A stretch of 23,566 bases of DNA from a virus, in IMG/VR virus record IMGVR_UViG_3300009182_000321, positions 1 through 23,566 of that record. One strand, given 5' to 3'. The notes under the pieces are model-generated. The model worked only from the letters and a program-made list of their open reading frames with translations, did not search any database and was not told the origin of the DNA. Shown here piece by piece: positions 3,248 to 13,075 of this stretch. The position numbers were made by a program, and so were the translations under genes. Position 1 is the stretch's first letter, and each line of letters opens with the position of its first letter.

Positions 3248-5638
3248 TTAGGCAAACTTATTGCCGCTGAGGCCCTTAGTAGCTTTAACTTGTGCTTCAT
3301 TCAAATCAATTGATTTGGCACTGTGCTGAACTAATTGCATTATACCAGTATTTAACCTCATAAGTGTATCGTTGACGTCTTTTAGACTTATTGTTTCTGA
3401 AGAAACAACAGGTGCTTGTGGCGTATTAACTGTTTGTGTATTGGATAATTTTGATTCTTCTACTGAAGCAGGAGTTTTTAATGTGCTATTAACATAAGCA
3501 TTGGGATTATAATCAACTTTAGGCGTATTAATACTGCTTACTCGAGTATTAATTCCTTCAAATGCTTTTGAAAAATCTATATTGCCTTTGGGATTTGCTG
3601 GTTGATCACTTGTTGTTGCGCGGCTAGTAGCAGTATTTTTAACAAACATTGATTGCATAGAAGCTAATGCAGATTCTATTCCAATATTTTTTGATCCACT
3701 GGCTAAATTGTTTAGTTGTGCTAGATTAACTACGCCTTCACCTTGATGTGCCAATACTGAAGTACCCTTTGGACTGAAATTATCAATCAACGAACCAGTT
3801 TCATTTAGACTTGTATGTTTTCTAGATATCTTTGGCGCTGGCCCCACGGTTCCGTCCGAAGGTGTGACTGTTTCCGTTTTAGGCTTAGGTGCTGGAGGAA
3901 CTTCTATTTTAGGTGCTGTAGCAGGTGCAGGTGTTGGGATTGGTTGTAACAACCTCGGATCGTTTGCCATTGTTGGGCGAAGATTTGGCTGTACCGCCGG
4001 AGTAGCCGGTGTAGTTGTAGATTGTTGTTTCTTAGGAGCTGGAGTTACTGTGCCATCACTTGATGGATTTTTCTTAGGAGCTGGAGTTACTGTGCCATCA
4101 TCTGGACTAGGTTTTGTTTGTTTTGTTGGATTGTCTTCGTCTTTGCCTGTGACAAATTTTCGCATAGTACCAATAAAATCTCCAAGAGCTTTTGTAGCTT
4201 TTTCGGTAGTTTCTTTTGTGTCAAGCATTTTTATTGAAACAGCTTTAAACGCATCGGCTAGCTCTTGAGCTCCTTTGGAACTTTTGACAACATTATCAAG
4301 CGCCGCTGCCGTATTTCGATTCATCTGCGCGGCCGCTGCCTCCATTGCATTTAATCCTCGTTGCGCTTCACTTCCCGGTGGTGGTGCAGAAGGTTTTATT
4401 CCTTTTTCTTTATCTCCAACTGATTCAACTTTTGCTTCTCTACGTGCTTGGGCTAGAGCTTGTCTATCAGTCAAAGAAGGATTCTTTTGTAGAATTTCTA
4501 CAATGCGCTGGCCCATTTGATTTTCTTGATAGGCTTTTTTCATTGCCTCACCACGAGCATCTCCTGATTGCATAGCTTGTTGATACTGGGGAGTTGCTTG
4601 ATACTTGGCCTGCTCTACTTGTGATCGTTCTAATAGAGCTCTGCCAGCTCTGCGATCGTTTTCAGTTGCTCCCCTAGTGGCCAATGCAGTGCCTCGGCGA
4701 AACATTGCGCCGCCATCTTTCATGGTTTGCATGAATGCTATAGTTTCTGGTGTTGGTTTTCCACCTGCCACAAGATTTGCACTGGCTTTTTGCGCACTCT
4801 CACCCATGCCTGTAAGTTGTACTTGAGTTAAAATAAATGATTTGCGCTGTTCTTCATTCATTAATCTCATACGGGCCATTACTTCAGGCTGTCGCAGTCT
4901 TTCTTCTAATTCTCCTGTGATTGCTTCAGTACTCTTACCAGTAACTTTAGCTTGATTTAAAATTTCTAATGCTAGTTTGGCATTAGCTTCTGATAACTTT
5001 TTACGTTCTGCTTTGTCTGCCTCACTATTGCTTGACATATTCTTGGCACCAAGAGAACCAACAGCTTGAATATGTACCATTTGTTGATCTAATGTAATAC
5101 CATAATCTGTTAGTTTCTGTCCAAATTTTCCTTCCCTAGCGTCTTTACCCATCTGGATTAAATTATTGCCAGTGTCGTTTACGCTGCCGCCTAGGCCTTG
5201 GAGTCCGCCTCCAAACTTTTTCATCATTGCTAGATATTGTTCAACAGACAGATTGCCTTCTTTCATTTGCTTTGAAAGACCGGTCAAATCTAAACCGCCA
5301 AGTCCGGCTCTAGCCGCGGCATTGGTTTCTTTTCTTCTAGTTTCTAAATCTCCAATAAACCCTTTTAAAGATCCGCCGACAATAGGTAAAGCTCCGGCTA
5401 TATCTCCCATGACTCCGGCGGCTATTCCTGTGTTGTAAGATAATCCTGATAGTGCTATGGCAGCTTGGGTGGCAGGTTTTATTAAGCCCTCTATGGCGCC
5501 TATAGCGCCTTGTATTATATCCTTAGACAGAGACCCACTACCAGGGCCAGTAGTGGTAGTGGTTGTACCCGGTTTTGGTGGCGCACTGTTGCCCTCTGAA
5601 GGTCGCGAATTGCCTGTGTTATCTGCCAGGTCAGCCAT
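3248..5638 (-). CDS. Large virion protein, probably tape-measure-like (796 aa)
   Basis: Residues about 1-35 are Thr/Gly/Pro-rich. Alanine- and glycine-rich, mildly hydrophobic stretches follow (G-A-I-G-A-I-E-G-L-I, about 45-110), then long charged helices (about 200-470), a Pro/Thr/Lys-rich linker with a repeated PSSDGTVTPAPKK-type unit (about 505-600) and, near residue 620, the block FSPKGTSVLAHQGEGVVNL. That last block resembles the conserved motif near the C-terminus of many phage tape-measure or minor tail proteins (F-x-P-x-G-T then L-x-x-G-E-x-V-V). The size, helical content and position opposite the gp26-like gene fit a tail-length ruler, larger than T4 gp29 (590 aa). An internal head protein is the main alternative. 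It opens the minus-strand head operon downstream of a late-type promoter box. Confidence 0.5.
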   Translation of the reverse strand: MADLADNTGNSRPSEGNSAPPKPGTTTTTTGPGSGSLSKDIIQGAIGAIEGLIKPATQAAIALSGLSYNTGIAAGVMGDIAGALPIVGGSLKGFIGDLETRRKETNAAARAGLGGLDLTGLSKQMKEGNLSVEQYLAMMKKFGGGLQGLGGSVNDTGNNLIQMGKDAREGKFGQKLTDYGITLDQQMVHIQAVGSLGAKNMSSNSEADKAERKKLSEANAKLALEILNQAKVTGKSTEAITGELEERLRQPEVMARMRLMNEEQRKSFILTQVQLTGMGESAQKASANLVAGGKPTPETIAFMQTMKDGGAMFRRGTALATRGATENDRRAGRALLERSQVEQAKYQATPQYQQAMQSGDARGEAMKKAYQENQMGQRIVEILQKNPSLTDRQALAQARREAKVESVGDKEKGIKPSAPPPGSEAQRGLNAMEAAAAQMNRNTAAALDNVVKSSKGAQELADAFKAVSIKMLDTKETTEKATKALGDFIGTMRKFVTGKDEDNPTKQTKPSPDDGTVTPAPKKNPSSDGTVTPAPKKQQSTTTPATPAVQPNLRPTMANDPRLLQPIPTPAPATAPKIEVPPAPKPKTETVTPSDGTVGPAPKISRKHTSLNETGSLIDNFSPKGTSVLAHQGEGVVNLAQLNNLASGSKNIGIESALASMQSMFVKNTATSRATTSDQPANPKGNIDFSKAFEGINTRVSSINTPKVDYNPNAYVNSTLKTPASVEESKLSNTQTVNTPQAPVVSSETISLKDVNDTLMRLNTGIMQLVQHSAKSIDLNEAQVKATKGLSGNKFA
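4028..4100. repeat. Two 31-bp identical copies, 42-bp period, in the linker of the large virion gene
   Basis: Positions 4028-4058 and 4070-4100 are identical by eye, 42 bp apart. They encode repeated T-V-T-P-A-P-K-K units. A diverged third copy (S-D-G-T-V-G-P-A-P-K) is encoded near 3840-3870. This looks like a recent in-frame duplication in a flexible linker. Confidence 0.85.
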
Positions 5639-5663: not shown

Positions 5664-5671
5664 TATAAATA
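5664..5671 (+). promoter_or_regulatory. T4-type late promoter box for the gp26-like gene
   Basis: TATAAATA is a perfect match to the T4 late promoter consensus, with its last base 32 bases before the ATG at 5703. A start about 7 bases downstream leaves a leader that includes the GGAGA ribosome-binding site. gp55, encoded at 12248-13075, would be its specificity factor. Confidence 0.7.
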
Positions 5672-5702: not shown

Positions 5703-6530
5703 ATGAGTTCCAACCCGTTACAACAATATTTTAGACAGCCTAAAATTTATATCAAACTACCTAGTCAAGGCATTTTTAACAAGCCTGGAACTATCCAAGG
5801 CGATGTTGCAAATTTGCCCATCTACGGCATGACTGGCATGGATGAAATTATTATCAAAACTCCAGATGCACTGATGACTGGAGAAAGCACAGCCAAAGTA
5901 ATTGCCAGTTGCTGTCCAAGTGTCAAAGACGCATGGGATCTCAATGTGTTAGATACGGAAATGATTTTTACTGCTATTAGAATTGCAACTTTTGGCAATA
6001 CTATGAGCGTGACTCATACTTGTCCCGGATGCCAAGCTGAAAACGAATATGACATTGATTTGACAAAGATTGTAGATCATTTGTCCACATGTCAGTACAA
6101 CAACAAAATTACAATAGATGATCTTGTTATTAAAATTCAACCGTTAACTTATAAACAAGGTACTGAGGTGAATATTAAAAATTTCACACTACAGCAAACA
6201 TTGTACAAAGCTGATGAACTAGAAGATGAAGCTGAAAAACAAAAAATTCTAAACGATTTGTGGAAACAAATTGGAGAAATTCAAACCGAAGTGTACATGG
6301 CCAGTGTTGAAAGTATTGACACTCCCACTGTGTCTGTAACTGAAAGAAATTTTATCACGGATTTTTTAAATAACTGCGACAAGTCCATATTCGATGCTAT
6401 CAAAAAACAAATTGATCTCAACAAAGACATTTGGAAGTTCAATGGTTTTGCTGTAAAATGTGATGCATGCAGTAAAGAAGCTAATCTCACTATAGAATTA
6501 GATCCATCAACTTTTTTCGTTCAAGCCTAA
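5703..6530 (+). CDS. 26: Baseplate hub / tail assembly protein, T4 gp26-like
   Basis: The 275-aa protein begins MSSNPLQQYFRQPKIYIKLP, with G-M-D-E-I and I-K-T-P-D-A-L-M-T-G at 45-60, then K-D-A-W and the I-R-I-A-T-F-G block near 92-98. I recognise this as the start of the family annotated gp26 (baseplate hub subunit) in T4-like marine phages; T4 gp26 has 208 aa. Two Cys pairs, CPGC (107-110) and CDAC (253-256), could form a zinc ribbon. The start at 5703 is chosen over the longer upstream frame because it has GGAGA 7 bases before it and sits correctly below a late box. The last codons contain a U_UUU_UUC heptamer, and translation may shift -1 there into the next frame, giving a 349-aa product. 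In T4 gp26 acts in hub assembly; a chaperone role like lambda gpG/GT is inference. Confidence 0.8.
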   Translation: MSSNPLQQYFRQPKIYIKLPSQGIFNKPGTIQGDVANLPIYGMTGMDEIIIKTPDALMTGESTAKVIASCCPSVKDAWDLNVLDTEMIFTAIRIATFGNTMSVTHTCPGCQAENEYDIDLTKIVDHLSTCQYNNKITIDDLVIKIQPLTYKQGTEVNIKNFTLQQTLYKADELEDEAEKQKILNDLWKQIGEIQTEVYMASVESIDTPTVSVTERNFITDFLNNCDKSIFDAIKKQIDLNKDIWKFNGFAVKCDACSKEANLTIELDPSTFFVQA

Positions 6531-6573
6531 TTGGATTGTCGGACGAGCAAATACAGGATCGTCTGGTTAGGCT
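6512..6573 (+). promoter_or_regulatory. Putative -1 programmed frameshift signal (slippery heptamer plus stem)
   Basis: The heptamer TTTTTTC (6512-6518) is in the correct X_XXY_YYZ phase of the gp26-like gene (codons ACT TTT TTC). Five bases later AGCCTAA (6524-6530), which contains the zero-frame stop, is exactly complementary to TTAGGCT (6567-6573). The stem can be extended inward by six pairs, four of them wobbles. The -1 frame is open from 6518 onward through the 71-codon downstream frame. No measurement of frameshifting is available. Confidence 0.55.
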
Positions 6574-6751
6574 GGATAAAGAAATTGCAGTGTTCAAAGA
6601 AGAACTGTTTAGAATCAGTTGGTACATGCGTGGAGGAATAACTGTAAACGAACTGCTGTTTAGTTTCAGCCACGATGACCGCACTGCGGCCTATGCCATT
6701 ATAAAAGAAAATATTGAATCTACAAAAAACACCGGAATGAATTTAATTTAA
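6536..6751 (+). CDS. Small downstream frame (71 codons), likely the -1 frameshift extension of the gp26-like gene
   Basis: The frame reads SDEQIQDRLVRLDKEIAV near its start, then the strongly family-like WYMRGGITVNE (about residues 29-39), H-D-D-R-T-A-A-Y and E-N-I-E-S-T-K near the end. I recall a small conserved protein with a W-Y-M-R-G-G block beside gp26 in T4-like cyanophages; by position it may be the counterpart of T4 gp51 (hub assembly). The only initiator near the start is TTG at 6536, with no ribosome-binding site, and the first ATG is 28 codons in. The frame is -1 relative to the gp26-like gene and continuous with it from 6518. If shifted, residues R-S-S-L-I-G join the gp26-like F272 to this frame. 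It ends 4 bases before the convergent gene, with no visible terminator between them. Confidence 0.7.
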   Translation: MSDEQIQDRLVRLDKEIAVFKEELFRISWYMRGGITVNELLFSFSHDDRTAAYAIIKENIESTKNTGMNLI

Positions 6752-6755
6752 ATTA

Positions 6756-8270
6756 TTACGGTTCTTGTCCTTTTGGCAACTGAACGTGTTTGCCTTTTTC
6801 GCCTTCTTTTGGATTTCCCCATACTATACTGTCAGGTAGCACATGTTCTATTGTCCATCCAGAAGCTGTAGTATATCCCATCTCACCTTGTTTAACACCG
6901 TTGGCATCAACTTTAGGTTTATCACTTGGAGCTGGTTGATCTGCCGGAGTTGTAGATTTTTTATCATCAGCGGCTCCGGGAGCTGGTTGTGCTGGAGTCG
7001 GTGCGGCTGGTTGTGCTGGAGCCGCCGGAGGTTCAGTATCATTGCCTGCTATAGTGTTTCCAACTTTCTTTCTTAAATAATTGGCAAATCGGGGCAATGC
7101 CAATACATCCTTAATAGTTCTATCTATGATGTTGGGCAAACTGTCTGTTGATAAATCATATGTTTGTCCAATAGTGCTTTTAACAGCAGTGTCGTGTGTA
7201 CTAGGACCTACTTGTTTGCCGGTTACATTATCGATTTCTGCGGTCACTTCCAGTTCTTTACCTAAAAGTTGTCCAAACTGTTTACTGATGCCACGATCAT
7301 TGACTTCTTTGACAAATTCGCCAAACAAAACAATACCACCAGCGACCAACAGATCACTTAGTACTGCCGCCGTACGTTCTAATTTGATGTATTTTATAAA
7401 ATTTATAAATTTAACACCGGCGGTGATTCCAAGCGCCGCAGTGGCCCCAATGGCGTAACACTGTGTTTTCAATCGTTGATTGTTGATAGTGTTTTGTCTA
7501 TCTACCCAAGTTGCCATATCGTTCTCTGTAGATGGTTTCAATTTGGTTGCAATCCAATCTTGAGCTTCAGCAGTTAAATTTCCTGGGTCAAAGCCGGCAG
7601 CTCGTAATTGTGCATTGTAATCATTTTGGGTAGTACCAAGATCTTTAAAACTTTGAATGTTTGCTCTAGTAGTGGCCCAATATTCGTACATAGGCCATGC
7701 ACCTGCCAGAAAATTTGCCAGGCCCAACAAAGCCCACCCGCCCCGTAGTACGGAGTATTTTTCTTTGATAGCTTCTATCGTCTTTTCTGTACGGGCCGCT
7801 GATATTTTTTCTAAGTTGGCTTTGTGTACTTTAGGCGCCAGTTTGTTACCTTGTTTGACAATCTCTTTCTGTACTTTAGGGTCTCTTGCAAACGGAGATA
7901 GTTCTAATTCAGTTGGCTTTCCATAATCAGGATTATCAACCCACTTGCCAGTTTCTTTACCGTCTTTGCCTATTTCTTTGATTTTAGGAGCAATAGTAGG
8001 ATCTCGGCTCATTTGTCGGGTAAACCATGTTGACACATCATCCGCAGTCTTGCCTGTCATTTTTTGTTTTGAAACATACTCAGCATACTGTTGAGCATAC
8101 TGTTCAATAAAGGCTTTTTCTTCACGTGTGAGTCCAGGCGCGAGTCGTAACAATTGCTTGATACCTTGAACAGCCAGTTGGTATGCATCTACAGCAAATC
8201 CGGCTGCACCGGGCAACTTCTTGACTTCAAATAATTCATGACGTGGCTTAATGATATCTATTGCTTTCAT
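6756..8270 (-). CDS. Unknown 504-aa protein with three hydrophobic segments and a Pro/Ala linker
   Basis: I do not recognise this family. The start at 8270 (MKAIDIIKPRHELF) is preferred; an upstream in-frame ATG at 8309 would add 13 residues that fall on a hairpin. Hydrophobic, possibly membrane-spanning stretches lie at about 177-198, 271-292 and 301-320. A charged helical region with K/E-rich segments (about 130-175) precedes them. Residues about 412-455 are a Pro/Ala/Gln-rich linker with repeated P-A-A-P-x-P-A-Q-P units, and a small C-terminal domain (about 462-504) with G-W-T-I-E-H-V follows. A large phage protein with internal hydrophobic segments could be a virion protein delivered to the host envelope, but this is inference. 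It lies downstream of the replication operon and the hairpin-rich gap and has a late-type box directly before its ATG. Confidence 0.75.
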   Translation of the reverse strand: MKAIDIIKPRHELFEVKKLPGAAGFAVDAYQLAVQGIKQLLRLAPGLTREEKAFIEQYAQQYAEYVSKQKMTGKTADDVSTWFTRQMSRDPTIAPKIKEIGKDGKETGKWVDNPDYGKPTELELSPFARDPKVQKEIVKQGNKLAPKVHKANLEKISAARTEKTIEAIKEKYSVLRGGWALLGLANFLAGAWPMYEYWATTRANIQSFKDLGTTQNDYNAQLRAAGFDPGNLTAEAQDWIATKLKPSTENDMATWVDRQNTINNQRLKTQCYAIGATAALGITAGVKFINFIKYIKLERTAAVLSDLLVAGGIVLFGEFVKEVNDRGISKQFGQLLGKELEVTAEIDNVTGKQVGPSTHDTAVKSTIGQTYDLSTDSLPNIIDRTIKDVLALPRFANYLRKKVGNTIAGNDTEPPAAPAQPAAPTPAQPAPGAADDKKSTTPADQPAPSDKPKVDANGVKQGEMGYTTASGWTIEHVLPDSIVWGNPKEGEKGKHVQLPKGQEP

Positions 8271-8275
8271 GCTTA

Positions 8276-8283
8276 TATTTATG
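8276..8283 (-). promoter_or_regulatory. Late-promoter-like box abutting the 504-aa gene start
   Basis: The minus strand reads CATAAATA, ending 5 bases before the ATG at 8270. A start about 7 bases downstream would fall at the ATG, giving a leaderless mRNA. No ribosome-binding site is seen at normal spacing, consistent with either leaderless translation or a wrongly chosen start. Confidence 0.4.
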
Positions 8284-8289
8284 ACTCTT

Positions 8290-8759
8290 TGTAGATGAAC
8301 TACGTTCATCTGTTCTTCGCTTGTCAGCTCGAACTGACTGTGTAATAAGATATAATTTAGTGCGAAGCACTTTAAATATTATCCAGATCGTTCAGTCACA
8401 CTTTGCCCTGGCGGGCAAAAGTGAAAAAACATTATCCGAGTCGAACATGTTCACCTAGCAGTACTGCATTACAGTGGCGGTCATCCGGTACCACGAGCAG
8501 AGTCTTTATATGACGGCGGGCTCCATGCATCTGCTAACACACATGAAACCGTGGGGCTACAACCCCTCTTTTAGCCTTGAAAATTCTTGCCAGTAAATCA
8601 AACGGGTTTGCGGCATATCCCATCATCGTCCGGTAAAGGATAGTGATTCACAGCTCTGTCACCAAGCAGAGATTACCTTGCCGCCACACATCAGAGCGGA
8701 TTCGGGGCACAATTACAACGCCTGTGCGGGCTTATTTGGTGATTTAACGGCCTGATTTA
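8290..8759. ncRNA. Hairpin-rich non-coding region, candidate structured RNA (strand uncertain)
   Basis: About 450 bases lack any plausible ORF and look more GC-rich than their surroundings. By eye they contain many local inverted repeats: 8293-8300/8304-8311 (8 bp, loop TAC), 8323-8327/8334-8338, 8359-8363/8367-8371, 8399-8408/8413-8423 (10 bp with one bulge), the 10-bp palindromes at 8443-8452 and 8458-8467, 8474-8480/8485-8494 (7 bp with a 3-base bulge), 8496-8501/8530-8535, 8553-8556/8563-8566, a nested set GGTAA 8632-8636/TTACC 8673-8677 around CTCTG 8654-8658/CAGAG 8667-8671, 8681-8684/8696-8699 and 8707-8711/8723-8727. It sits between the GIY-YIG gene and the 504-aa gene. I could not fit a tRNA, tmRNA, RNase P or group I intron core. 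It could be a large phage RNA, a regulatory leader, or a DNA site such as an origin or homing target. Confidence 0.35.
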
Positions 8760-9185
8760 TTATGACTTGAGTATATGTGAACCATGTACACGCACTTGAA
8801 TATGACCATTATAATAGTCTTTTGATTCAAGAACTCTGCGACTAAACTGTTCACGAGCCTCTATGTAACTGCATTCTGCCTTGCTTTGGCAGTAGAAAAG
8901 TATTTCTCTACTGAAGTTTTCCGGACCTAACTGCGCAACGTCCTTGCTCAACTCCGGGCTGGAACCATAATAGTCCCGCCAATCGCTGTCAATTTTACTG
9001 CGGATTTTCTTTTTTTTCTTAGCGCCGTTTTTTAATTTTACTGTTTTATAAGTAGTTTTAGAAAATTTTGCTAGTTTTTTGCCTATGTACATACGCCCTG
9101 TAACGGTGTTTGTTATAATATAAACAAACCCAACACACGTTTCGGGCAGTGATTCTACGATTTCATTTTGGTATGACCAGGACAT
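8760..9185 (-). CDS. GIY-YIG family endonuclease (141 aa)
   Basis: GFVYIITNTVTGRMYIGKK (residues 19-37) carries the two GIY-YIG half-motifs, VYI (21-23) and YIG (33-35). A Lys-rich insertion follows (about 46-60), then D-W-R-D-Y-Y-G-S (about 68-75), typical of phage GIY-YIG proteins, and E-N-F-S-R-E-I-L. Near 105-112 the segment S-Y-I-E-A-R-E-Q supplies the likely catalytic Glu. The protein is short and has no obvious separate DNA-binding domain, so it resembles the compact stand-alone members seen in T4-like phages, some of which are homing endonucleases. Nothing here shows it inside an intron. It follows the Hc1-like gene by 12 bases and has a poor ribosome-binding site. Its role (mobile DNA spread or DNA processing) cannot be decided from sequence. 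Confidence 0.85.
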   Translation of the reverse strand: MSWSYQNEIVESLPETCVGFVYIITNTVTGRMYIGKKLAKFSKTTYKTVKLKNGAKKKKKIRSKIDSDWRDYYGSSPELSKDVAQLGPENFSREILFYCQSKAECSYIEAREQFSRRVLESKDYYNGHIQVRVHGSHILKS

Positions 9186-11245: not shown

Positions 11246-12255
11246 AAGCTGTTATAAATTTCCAACAATACGTTTTTGTCAAATTGATCCGATTCAATAC
11301 TTACAATCTGACTGGACACAATTTGATCAACACTTTCAAATGTTTGAATATCAATGTTGGTATTGATCTCAAGATCCTTTTTCTCTGCAATAAGTGTTAA
11401 TTCCCGGATGTCATGTTTTTTAATAAATGTTTCTTTAATAAAACTGGCTTCTTCGTAGCTGATATCAATATCTAATGTAACACGCAAATGTTGCTTGGGT
11501 TTGATAATTGTATCTTCTTCGTCAATCAACTGGCTTAGTTTTACAGTTCTAAATGTGGGTTGGTCTGGCCAACTATGATACACAGGTTCGCCTCCCCACT
11601 CTAACGTCATCATACCGCGATCATCGTCCCATGCATCTGCGTAATTGTGCGGAAATGCATTGCCGATATAGATCATATTTTTTTGCTGTTGGCGTTTGTG
11701 AAAGTGACCGCTGAATCCCAGCTCATAACCTTTAAAACTGTCCAGCTGAATTTCTCCGTGATCTGGCATCTGTATCATGGCGTTCATAAAAAAGCTGGGC
11801 AATTCAAAATGTCCAAATATGTACTTGCCACCTTTCTTACCTACCGATCGCCATTCGTCACCGACAAGCCACGGGCAGAGTGTAACGTCCCCAATGGTAG
11901 TCGGTTCGTGGACCACTGTGACTCCGGGGATGTATTTTCCAAACTCAACCGAATGAATGTCCCGTTTGTCTTTGTAATATAGATCATGGTTGCCAGGAAA
12001 AAAATAAAAATTATCAAATGCTTTACCCAGCTTTTCCAAAGCGCGAAGGCTATAATCCATAGTAGTGATATTAAGACTATTGCGATTGTGATGCCAATCT
12101 CCCATAAAAATTCCAGTGTCACAGCCTTCCTCCTTTGCCTTGGCAATATACCAGTCTACAAAATCTTCACAGTCTTGATTGTGTACACTGCTGTTGGATT
12201 TTAATCCAAAGTGAATATCGGTGAAACAAGCCACCTTTTTAAACAAATTACTCAT
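11242..12255 (-). CDS. 47: Recombination endonuclease subunit gp47 (Mre11/SbcD-like nuclease)
   Basis: The calcineurin-type phosphoesterase motifs are all present in order: F-T-D-I-H (D13, H15), GDWHHNR (52-58), GNHD (88-91), F-G-H-F-E (147-151) and GHFHKR (183-188). These residues bind the two metal ions of Mre11-type nucleases. The 337-aa length matches T4 gp47 (339 aa). The C-terminal third is the expected capping and gp46-binding region. The ATG lies inside the last codons of gp55 (8-base overlap) and the gene overlaps gp46 by 4 bases, so gp55, gp47 and gp46 are one tightly coupled transcription unit. Confidence 0.96.
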   Translation of the reverse strand: MSNLFKKVACFTDIHFGLKSNSSVHNQDCEDFVDWYIAKAKEEGCDTGIFMGDWHHNRNSLNITTMDYSLRALEKLGKAFDNFYFFPGNHDLYYKDKRDIHSVEFGKYIPGVTVVHEPTTIGDVTLCPWLVGDEWRSVGKKGGKYIFGHFELPSFFMNAMIQMPDHGEIQLDSFKGYELGFSGHFHKRQQQKNMIYIGNAFPHNYADAWDDDRGMMTLEWGGEPVYHSWPDQPTFRTVKLSQLIDEEDTIIKPKQHLRVTLDIDISYEEASFIKETFIKKHDIRELTLIAEKKDLEINTNIDIQTFESVDQIVSSQIVSIESDQFDKNVLLEIYNSL

Positions 12256-13075
12256 TGTCTGCTTCGTACCTTTTTACAGCGGCCGCATGTTCACCAGCGC
12301 CTGTTCTACTATAACTTGGATTCATACCGTTAATTTCTAAAATGTCGTCACGAATATTTTGATTTCGTTTTTCTATGTTAATAACACGAACAAAACTATT
12401 AGTAACAGCGGCAGTGAAATACGCAAAAGGGTTATCTGACTTTGATTCATCGAATTGTAATCCTATCTGTGTTAGTTGCAAAATTGCTTGACCCTTCATT
12501 TCGTCATTGTATGTGTAGCCACGAACGTTACCGCGAGTAGCATATCTCTCACATAATTTTAACATCATTCGTGCTAGAGTTGGAGTAATTTGGCCCGCAT
12601 CTTTATCAAAATGTCCTGTATCTAACGGACCTTTCCAGTGACTCTTGCCCACACAAATCAACTCGTCGGCATCATTAAATTTCCAATGTTGGAACGGTGG
12701 AAAGTTTACTTTGTCTCTATGATCGGCAAGACTCTTTGGGTTTTTCTTACGGGTATTATTCAACGGAATATGATCAAAACTCATTATACGAAATACTACA
12801 TCAGTTTTGGCAATTTTTTTATAATCGACTTCGCAATCTGCTTGTTTGACTTTCTCGCCTGCTTTTTTACGAGCTTCATAATCTTGTTGGCCCATGCGTT
12901 TAGCTCTTGCTCGTTTAGCATCGGCAATGCTTCTAATATTAATTTTGTCTACGCTGGGCAGAATTGCGTCATATTGGTGAAATGCAGGATCGGTAAAACT
13001 ACAATATGATGTTTTTGATCTGTGTATTTCCAATAACATATCCTTGTTATTTAGGTAGTTAACTTTAGCTGTCAT
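12248..13075 (-). CDS. 55: Late-transcription sigma factor, T4 gp55-like
   Basis: Residues about 165-245 carry the gp55/sigma region 2-like core: L-C-E-R-Y-A-T-R-G-N, G-Y-T-Y-N-D-E-M (187-193) and D-N-P-F-A-Y-F-T (214-221), then N-S-F-V-R-V and I-E-K-R-N-Q-N-I-R-D-D. In T4, gp55 directs host RNA polymerase to TATAAATA late promoters together with the sliding clamp and gp33. At 275 aa this is longer than T4 gp55 (185 aa); the extra N-terminal 160 residues include a Lys/Arg-rich stretch (54-78) and the block VNFPPFQHWKFNDADELICV (123-142). The start at 13075 has GGAG 9 bases upstream and a sigma-70 promoter above it. It is the first gene of the operon and precedes gp47 with an 8-base overlap. 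Confidence 0.88.
   Translation of the reverse strand: MTAKVNYLNNKDMLLEIHRSKTSYCSFTDPAFHQYDAILPSVDKINIRSIADAKRARAKRMGQQDYEARKKAGEKVKQADCEVDYKKIAKTDVVFRIMSFDHIPLNNTRKKNPKSLADHRDKVNFPPFQHWKFNDADELICVGKSHWKGPLDTGHFDKDAGQITPTLARMMLKLCERYATRGNVRGYTYNDEMKGQAILQLTQIGLQFDESKSDNPFAYFTAAVTNSFVRVINIEKRNQNIRDDILEINGMNPSYSRTGAGEHAAAVKRYEADNE

Follow-up and report, generated by a model that had tools for sequence, protein, structure and literature searches.

A predicted −1 programmed ribosomal frameshift with a covarying stem at the end of a gp26-like, putative tail assembly chaperone gene

The DNA considered here is a stretch of 23,566 nucleotides from a virus (IMG/VR record IMGVR_UViG_3300009182_000321), the whole of which is referred to as the window. 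At issue is the 3' end of a gp26-like gene, that is, one whose product matches the Pfam family PF12322 at 50.2 bits in a profile search (versus a cut-off of 24.5) as well as phrog_150, baseplate hub, in a PHROG search (E 6.7e-17). The relevant features are as follows.

3248-5638, minus strand: divergent 796-aa open reading frame (ORF) adjoining the gp26-like gene, probable tape measure protein and putative chaperone client
5664-5671, plus strand: T4-type late-promoter-like TATAAATA, located 31 nt before the ATG of the gp26-like gene, a candidate by consensus match only
5703-6530, plus strand: gp26-like gene (PF12322, T4_baseplate), encoding the short form, TAC-N, of 275 aa; stop TAA at 6528-6530
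6512-6518, plus strand: in-phase slippery heptamer T_TTT_TTC
6518-6751, plus strand: −1 frame extension (77 codons and a stop), forming the C-terminal domain of the predicted 349-aa fusion, TAC-NC
6519-6524, plus strand: 6-nt spacer between the heptamer and the conserved stem
6525-6534, plus strand: 5' arm of the putative stimulatory stem, which holds the gp26 stop codon
6563-6572, plus strand: 3' arm of that stem
12248-13075: gp55-like late sigma factor

Neither Pfam nor PHROG gives a significant match to the 796-aa ORF. Its counterpart in jumbo phages, however, lies between the gp20 portal gene and gp26 and is annotated as a structural protein, and it is from this position and annotation that it is viewed as probably the tape measure protein. 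The late-promoter-like TATAAATA at 5664-5671 is the sole match to that motif in the window. Converging on the gp26-like gene from its other side is a minus-strand ORF of 517 aa (6756-8309), with a Pro/Ala-rich stretch near its C-terminus and without a match in either Pfam or PHROG at E 0.001. Further along, in a cluster of structural and replication genes, is a SegE-type GIY-YIG homing endonuclease (8760-9185, minus strand; PF19835, 114.6 bits).

A first-pass annotation of this DNA had placed a slippery heptamer in phase at the end of the gp26-like gene, followed by a −1 frame that is open from the heptamer onward and lacks an ATG, and this description holds. The codons of T_TTT_TTC are TTT (6513-6515) and TTC (6516-6518), while the −1 frame is open already from 6485, through the heptamer, and ends at 6751. 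There is no ATG in that frame before its W-Y-M block (ATG at 6626), the sole near-start being a TTG at 6536. The complementary arms that had been described, AGCCTAA (6524-6530) and TTAGGCT (6567-6573), likewise are both present, and the resulting hairpin spans the gp26-like stop codon, as had been claimed. Two particulars nevertheless need amending. The stem is longer than the 7 bp originally described, its conserved core spanning 10 bp (6525-6534 paired with 6563-6572). In addition, a slip on the heptamer is predicted to join 272 codons to 77, giving, as had been stated, a fusion of 349 residues versus the 275 of the short form, but with a post-slip portion of 77 residues (6518-6748) rather than 71. 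As TTTTTTC occurs 11 times in the window, versus 11.85 expected, the heptamer by itself is unsurprising, and the case for recoding therefore depends on position, phase, stem, and conservation.

Conservation was assessed using 80 related loci from an IMG/VR scan (47-73% identity), thus 81 loci including that of the window and 61 unique junctions. An alignment of the junction had been suggested by the first-pass annotation, and in it the heptamer is identical at 81 of 81 loci, followed by G in every one, the phase is always −1, a start codon is mostly absent, and the structure covaries. That is, for all 80 relatives as well as the window, the homologous downstream frame has phase −1 and stays open through the heptamer, and at 67 of the 81 loci codons 1 to 30 of the −1 frame include no ATG, GTG, or TTG. 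The gp26-like stop itself is found one codon after the heptamer at 13 loci and three codons after at 68, a shift by which the −1 frame is unaffected. The codon pair TTTTTTCG (TTT TTC) is present in 61 of 61 unique junctions, versus a usage among gene-body Phe codons of 81% TTT and 19% TTC. Since synonymous differences among these relatives are near saturation (pS 0.73-0.74), unchanged codons over the T run mean selection.

The 62 nt following the heptamer in the window fold at −20.6 kcal/mol (z −3.42), with none of 200 shuffles as stable, which bears out the fold proposed from inspection. Among the 61 unique sequences the folding minimum falls exactly at the site (mean −16.7 kcal/mol), versus means of −4.8 to −11.4 kcal/mol at neighbouring, non-overlapping positions. 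The stem region of the relatives aligns gap-free, and in that alignment the 10 stem pairs are formed in 97.4% of cells, with both-sided changes at four of the pairs (e.g., U-A to A-U, or G-C to A-U). The resulting covariation score is reached by none of 500 shuffles and exceeds that of every slid version, sliding of the stem arms destroying the pairing. Codon choice in the arms supports the same stem: 58 of 60 sequences have AGG as the Arg codon of the 3' arm, versus a background share of 6%, and 58 of 61 have CTA as the Leu codon of the 5' arm, versus 12%. No match was found at the junction in Rfam. This covarying stimulatory stem is suited to bench work.

The −1 frame, in turn, is under purifying selection. 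Its pN/pS after codon 21 is 0.35, versus 0.91 and 1.43 for the other two frames of the same DNA, and it contains no stops, versus 6.3 and 9.8 per sequence in those other frames. Protein conservation begins right at the heptamer (FR..L), and W36, M38, R39, and G40 of the −1 domain are invariant. AlphaFold predicts this domain confidently as three helices (pLDDT 88.6). The domain alone gives no significant match in Pfam or PHROG and no convincing fold match in the PDB.

The same arrangement is seen well beyond these relatives. Among cyanophage-type loci T_TTT_TTC is present in 76 of 76 unique sequences, always one codon before the stop and with a folding minimum just downstream of the heptamer. 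It is found as well in S-RIM8, Aeromonas 65.2, and Mendera. SAR11 phage HTVC008M and C48C1 have instead an all-T run, of T7 or longer, directly before the stop, RHph_Y68 has T_TTT_TTG, and Stenotrophomonas phages possess the same layout. The 10 jumbo or otherwise distant isolates checked (Phosso, PA5oct, 121Q, Atu_ph07, RaK2, BF, Vibrio 2.275.O, SCTP-2, RAS14, and XacN1) all carry T6C or T7 in phase along with a −1 extension of 72 to 81 residues. In Phosso, 121Q, BF, and others, a start codon of the −1 frame lies close to the gp26 stop, and in some such lineages coupled reinitiation is possible. The exception is Vibrio phage K476 (record L178, at about 2723), whose gp26 homologue lacks T6 and instead has an ATG overlapping the stop (TAATG); in that lineage coupled reinitiation may have replaced frameshifting. 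The joined product is annotated in none of the isolate records examined, the extension being either missing, called as a small hypothetical protein, or labelled ‘gp51’ or ‘baseplate hub assembly catalyst’. Short ORFs so labelled in cyanophage and SAR11 phage records (L089, 6657-6752; L174, 2262-2399; L180, 16366-16503) seem to be the −1 extension, called in truncated form.

Judged from sequence, the locus very probably amounts to one tail assembly chaperone gene that undergoes −1 programmed ribosomal frameshifting. The frameshift itself had been proposed in the first-pass annotation, and it has since gained support from the phase, the heptamer, and the covarying stem, as well as from extension to cyanophages, HTVC008M, and jumbo phages. 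Alternatively, the downstream frame could be a small gene in its own right, with coupled reinitiation starting its translation, past the gp26 stop, at the TTG at 6536 or at some other near-start. Consistent with this are the existence of that TTG, the annotation in several jumbo phages of separate ORFs whose starts coincide with the stop or lie close to it, and the overlapping ATG of Vibrio K476, where T6 is absent. An independent gene, however, would give no reason to keep either heptamer or stem, would have to do without any ATG, GTG, or TTG over 30 codons at 67 of 81 loci, and does not account for protein conservation that starts at the heptamer (FR..L) nor for a −1 frame that is unaffected as the stop moves from one to three codons past the heptamer. 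It is quite improbable.

From a different perspective, the T run might be a site of transcriptional slippage, with the fusion made from mRNAs possessing one extra base. The T6 run is invariant, as such slippage would have it, and in two relatives, HTVC008M and C48C1, it is longer; six T's nevertheless are short for efficient slippage by RNA polymerase, and the conserved C, like the covarying stem that follows after 6 nt, is in keeping with ribosomal shifting instead, making this explanation highly improbable. There is as well the prospect of mere chance, i.e., a T-rich gene end that happens to lie beside an overlapping ORF, with no recoding involved. Although TTTTTTC is no commoner in the window than expected, chance does not explain conservation in the face of saturated synonymous sites (pS 0.73-0.74), nor stem covariation together with the AGG bias of the 3' arm, and it has virtually no probability left to it. 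The retention of heptamer and phase in 80 of 80 relatives, the covarying stem, the 76 of 76 cyanophage-type loci, and coding selection on the −1 frame together refute it.

Frameshifting in cells, along with its rate, we infer from what is observed, namely the signal, its phase and conservation, the covarying stem, and the coding constraint on the −1 frame. Under programmed frameshifting, most ribosomes would read the gp26-like frame to its stop at 6530, yielding TAC-N of 275 aa. A minority would pause at the hairpin, which begins 6 nt after T_TTT_TTC, with the P- and A-site tRNA-Phe then moving one base backwards to pair with UUU UUU, after which translation would run on in the −1 frame to 6751, yielding the 349-aa TAC-NC fusion. 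By analogy with lambda G and GT, many TAC-N and few TAC-NC would then coat the tape measure protein, with the C-terminal domain of TAC-NC recruiting tail tube subunits. Phage T4 would obtain the equivalent two products from a pair of genes, the short gp26 and the fusion-like gp51. The chaperone role likewise we infer, on the basis of the PF12322 family, the layout, the adjoining probable tape measure gene, and a modest match to the HK97 tail assembly chaperone (2ob9). The last involves residues 1-97 of the model, with 85 of 107 residues aligned at a Z of 5.9 and an rmsd of 3.3, which is lower than is usual for chance arrangements and is not decisive alone. Foldseek returned no match in the PDB at E 0.001 or better.

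The relationship to T4 requires separate consideration. T4 gp26 and gp51 each match PF12322 over the whole domain, with gp51 possessing about 48 extra residues. T4 thus has two copies of this family, versus exactly one in all 23 other records with a family match (16 of 17 other records in a first search and 7 of 7 in a second); SCTP-2 falls below the PF12322 threshold, yet has a tblastn match. The Phe-Phe site of T4 gp26 is not slippery, its codons being GAG TTC TTT GAG, so that the site reads GTTCTTT. Cyanophage −1 extensions, taken alone, hit phrog_634, ‘baseplate hub assembly catalyst’, at E 6.6e-31 and 8.6e-29; of the two tested, one also matches phrog_150, over positions 232-281 (E 1.1e-5, versus 0.092 for the other). 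The gp51 tail alone matches both phrog_150 (236-281) and phrog_634 (62-103), and cyanophage extension and gp51 tail match each other (hhalign E 2.3e-5). As these matches are shared, the layout of gp51 is that of a TAC-NC made without frameshifting. For the window, direct profile comparison of the −1 domain with the gp51 tail detects no match (hhalign E 0.39), and the whole fusion matches gp51 weakly. The window extension does match the jumbo phage set (E 8.6e-18), which in turn matches the gp51 tail (E 0.0078), and it is via jumbo phages that the window extension may be indirectly linked to that tail.

From these comparisons it may be proposed that a U_UUU_UUC frameshift at gp26 is ancestral for almost all of the T4-like supergroup, taking in cyanophages, SAR11 phages, jumbo phages, and the group to which the window belongs, that in the T4 lineage a gene duplication led to its loss, with gp51 a frozen fusion, and that the covarying hairpin is specific to the lineage considered here. 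We weigh the chances for and against this proposal as about even.

Frameshifting of the G-T type is described in review as widespread in long-tailed phages, T4 excepted (PMC5009743). The first-pass annotation had supposed that a frameshift at the gp26/gp51 position was new, and that supposition falls, as poly-T signals in T4-like TAC-N genes have already been described, per papers citing Vladimirov et al. 2022. The Adele paper (PMC12846349) credits Vladimirov et al. 2022 with poly-T −1 signals in T4-like TAC-N genes, PRFect (PMC10885494) states, after the same work, that in some T4-like phages a short gene and a separate fusion gene take the place of frameshifting, and citing papers attribute to it the gp26/gp51 chaperone assignment. 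For jumbo phages no report of the frameshift was found in the literature searched, and the covarying hairpin, as well as the extent across jumbo phages and the window's group, may be unreported. The results indicate that T4's relatives mostly follow the frameshifted tail chaperone rule, with the gp26/gp51 pair of T4 replacing the frameshift. They would also explain the orphan short ‘gp51’ ORFs of cyanophage and SAR11 phage annotations, correct a hidden protein in many genomes, and offer an evolutionary path, open to testing, by which recoding gives way to gene duplication.

Among known systems, the likeness to lambda G/GT that had been claimed from layout is upheld by a −1 frame that is under coding selection and mostly without its own start. 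As in lambda, and also in P2, HK97, and other long-tailed phages, there is a short chaperone plus a −1 fusion, an upstream gene carrying a slippery site at its 3' end, a downstream frame lacking its own start, and a gene located beside a probable tape measure gene. The window differs in that its protein is from a different sequence family (PF12322), its signal is U_UUU_UUC with a strongly conserved hairpin, and its probable tape measure gene is on the opposite strand. The TAC locus of Vandenendeviridae and Andersonviridae (phage Adele, PMC12846349) likewise involves a comparatively inferred −1 frameshift with a poly-T motif at the 3' end of TAC-N. There, however, the phage families are others, the motif is GTTTTT, and no covarying stem is reported in the portions of that paper available to us. 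With T4 gp26/gp51 the window shares PF12322, and gp51 consists, as does the predicted fusion, of a gp26-like domain plus a C-terminal tail. T4's two forms, by contrast, are two genes on opposite strands, and the Phe-Phe codons of its gp26 are TTC TTT, with the slippery site absent.
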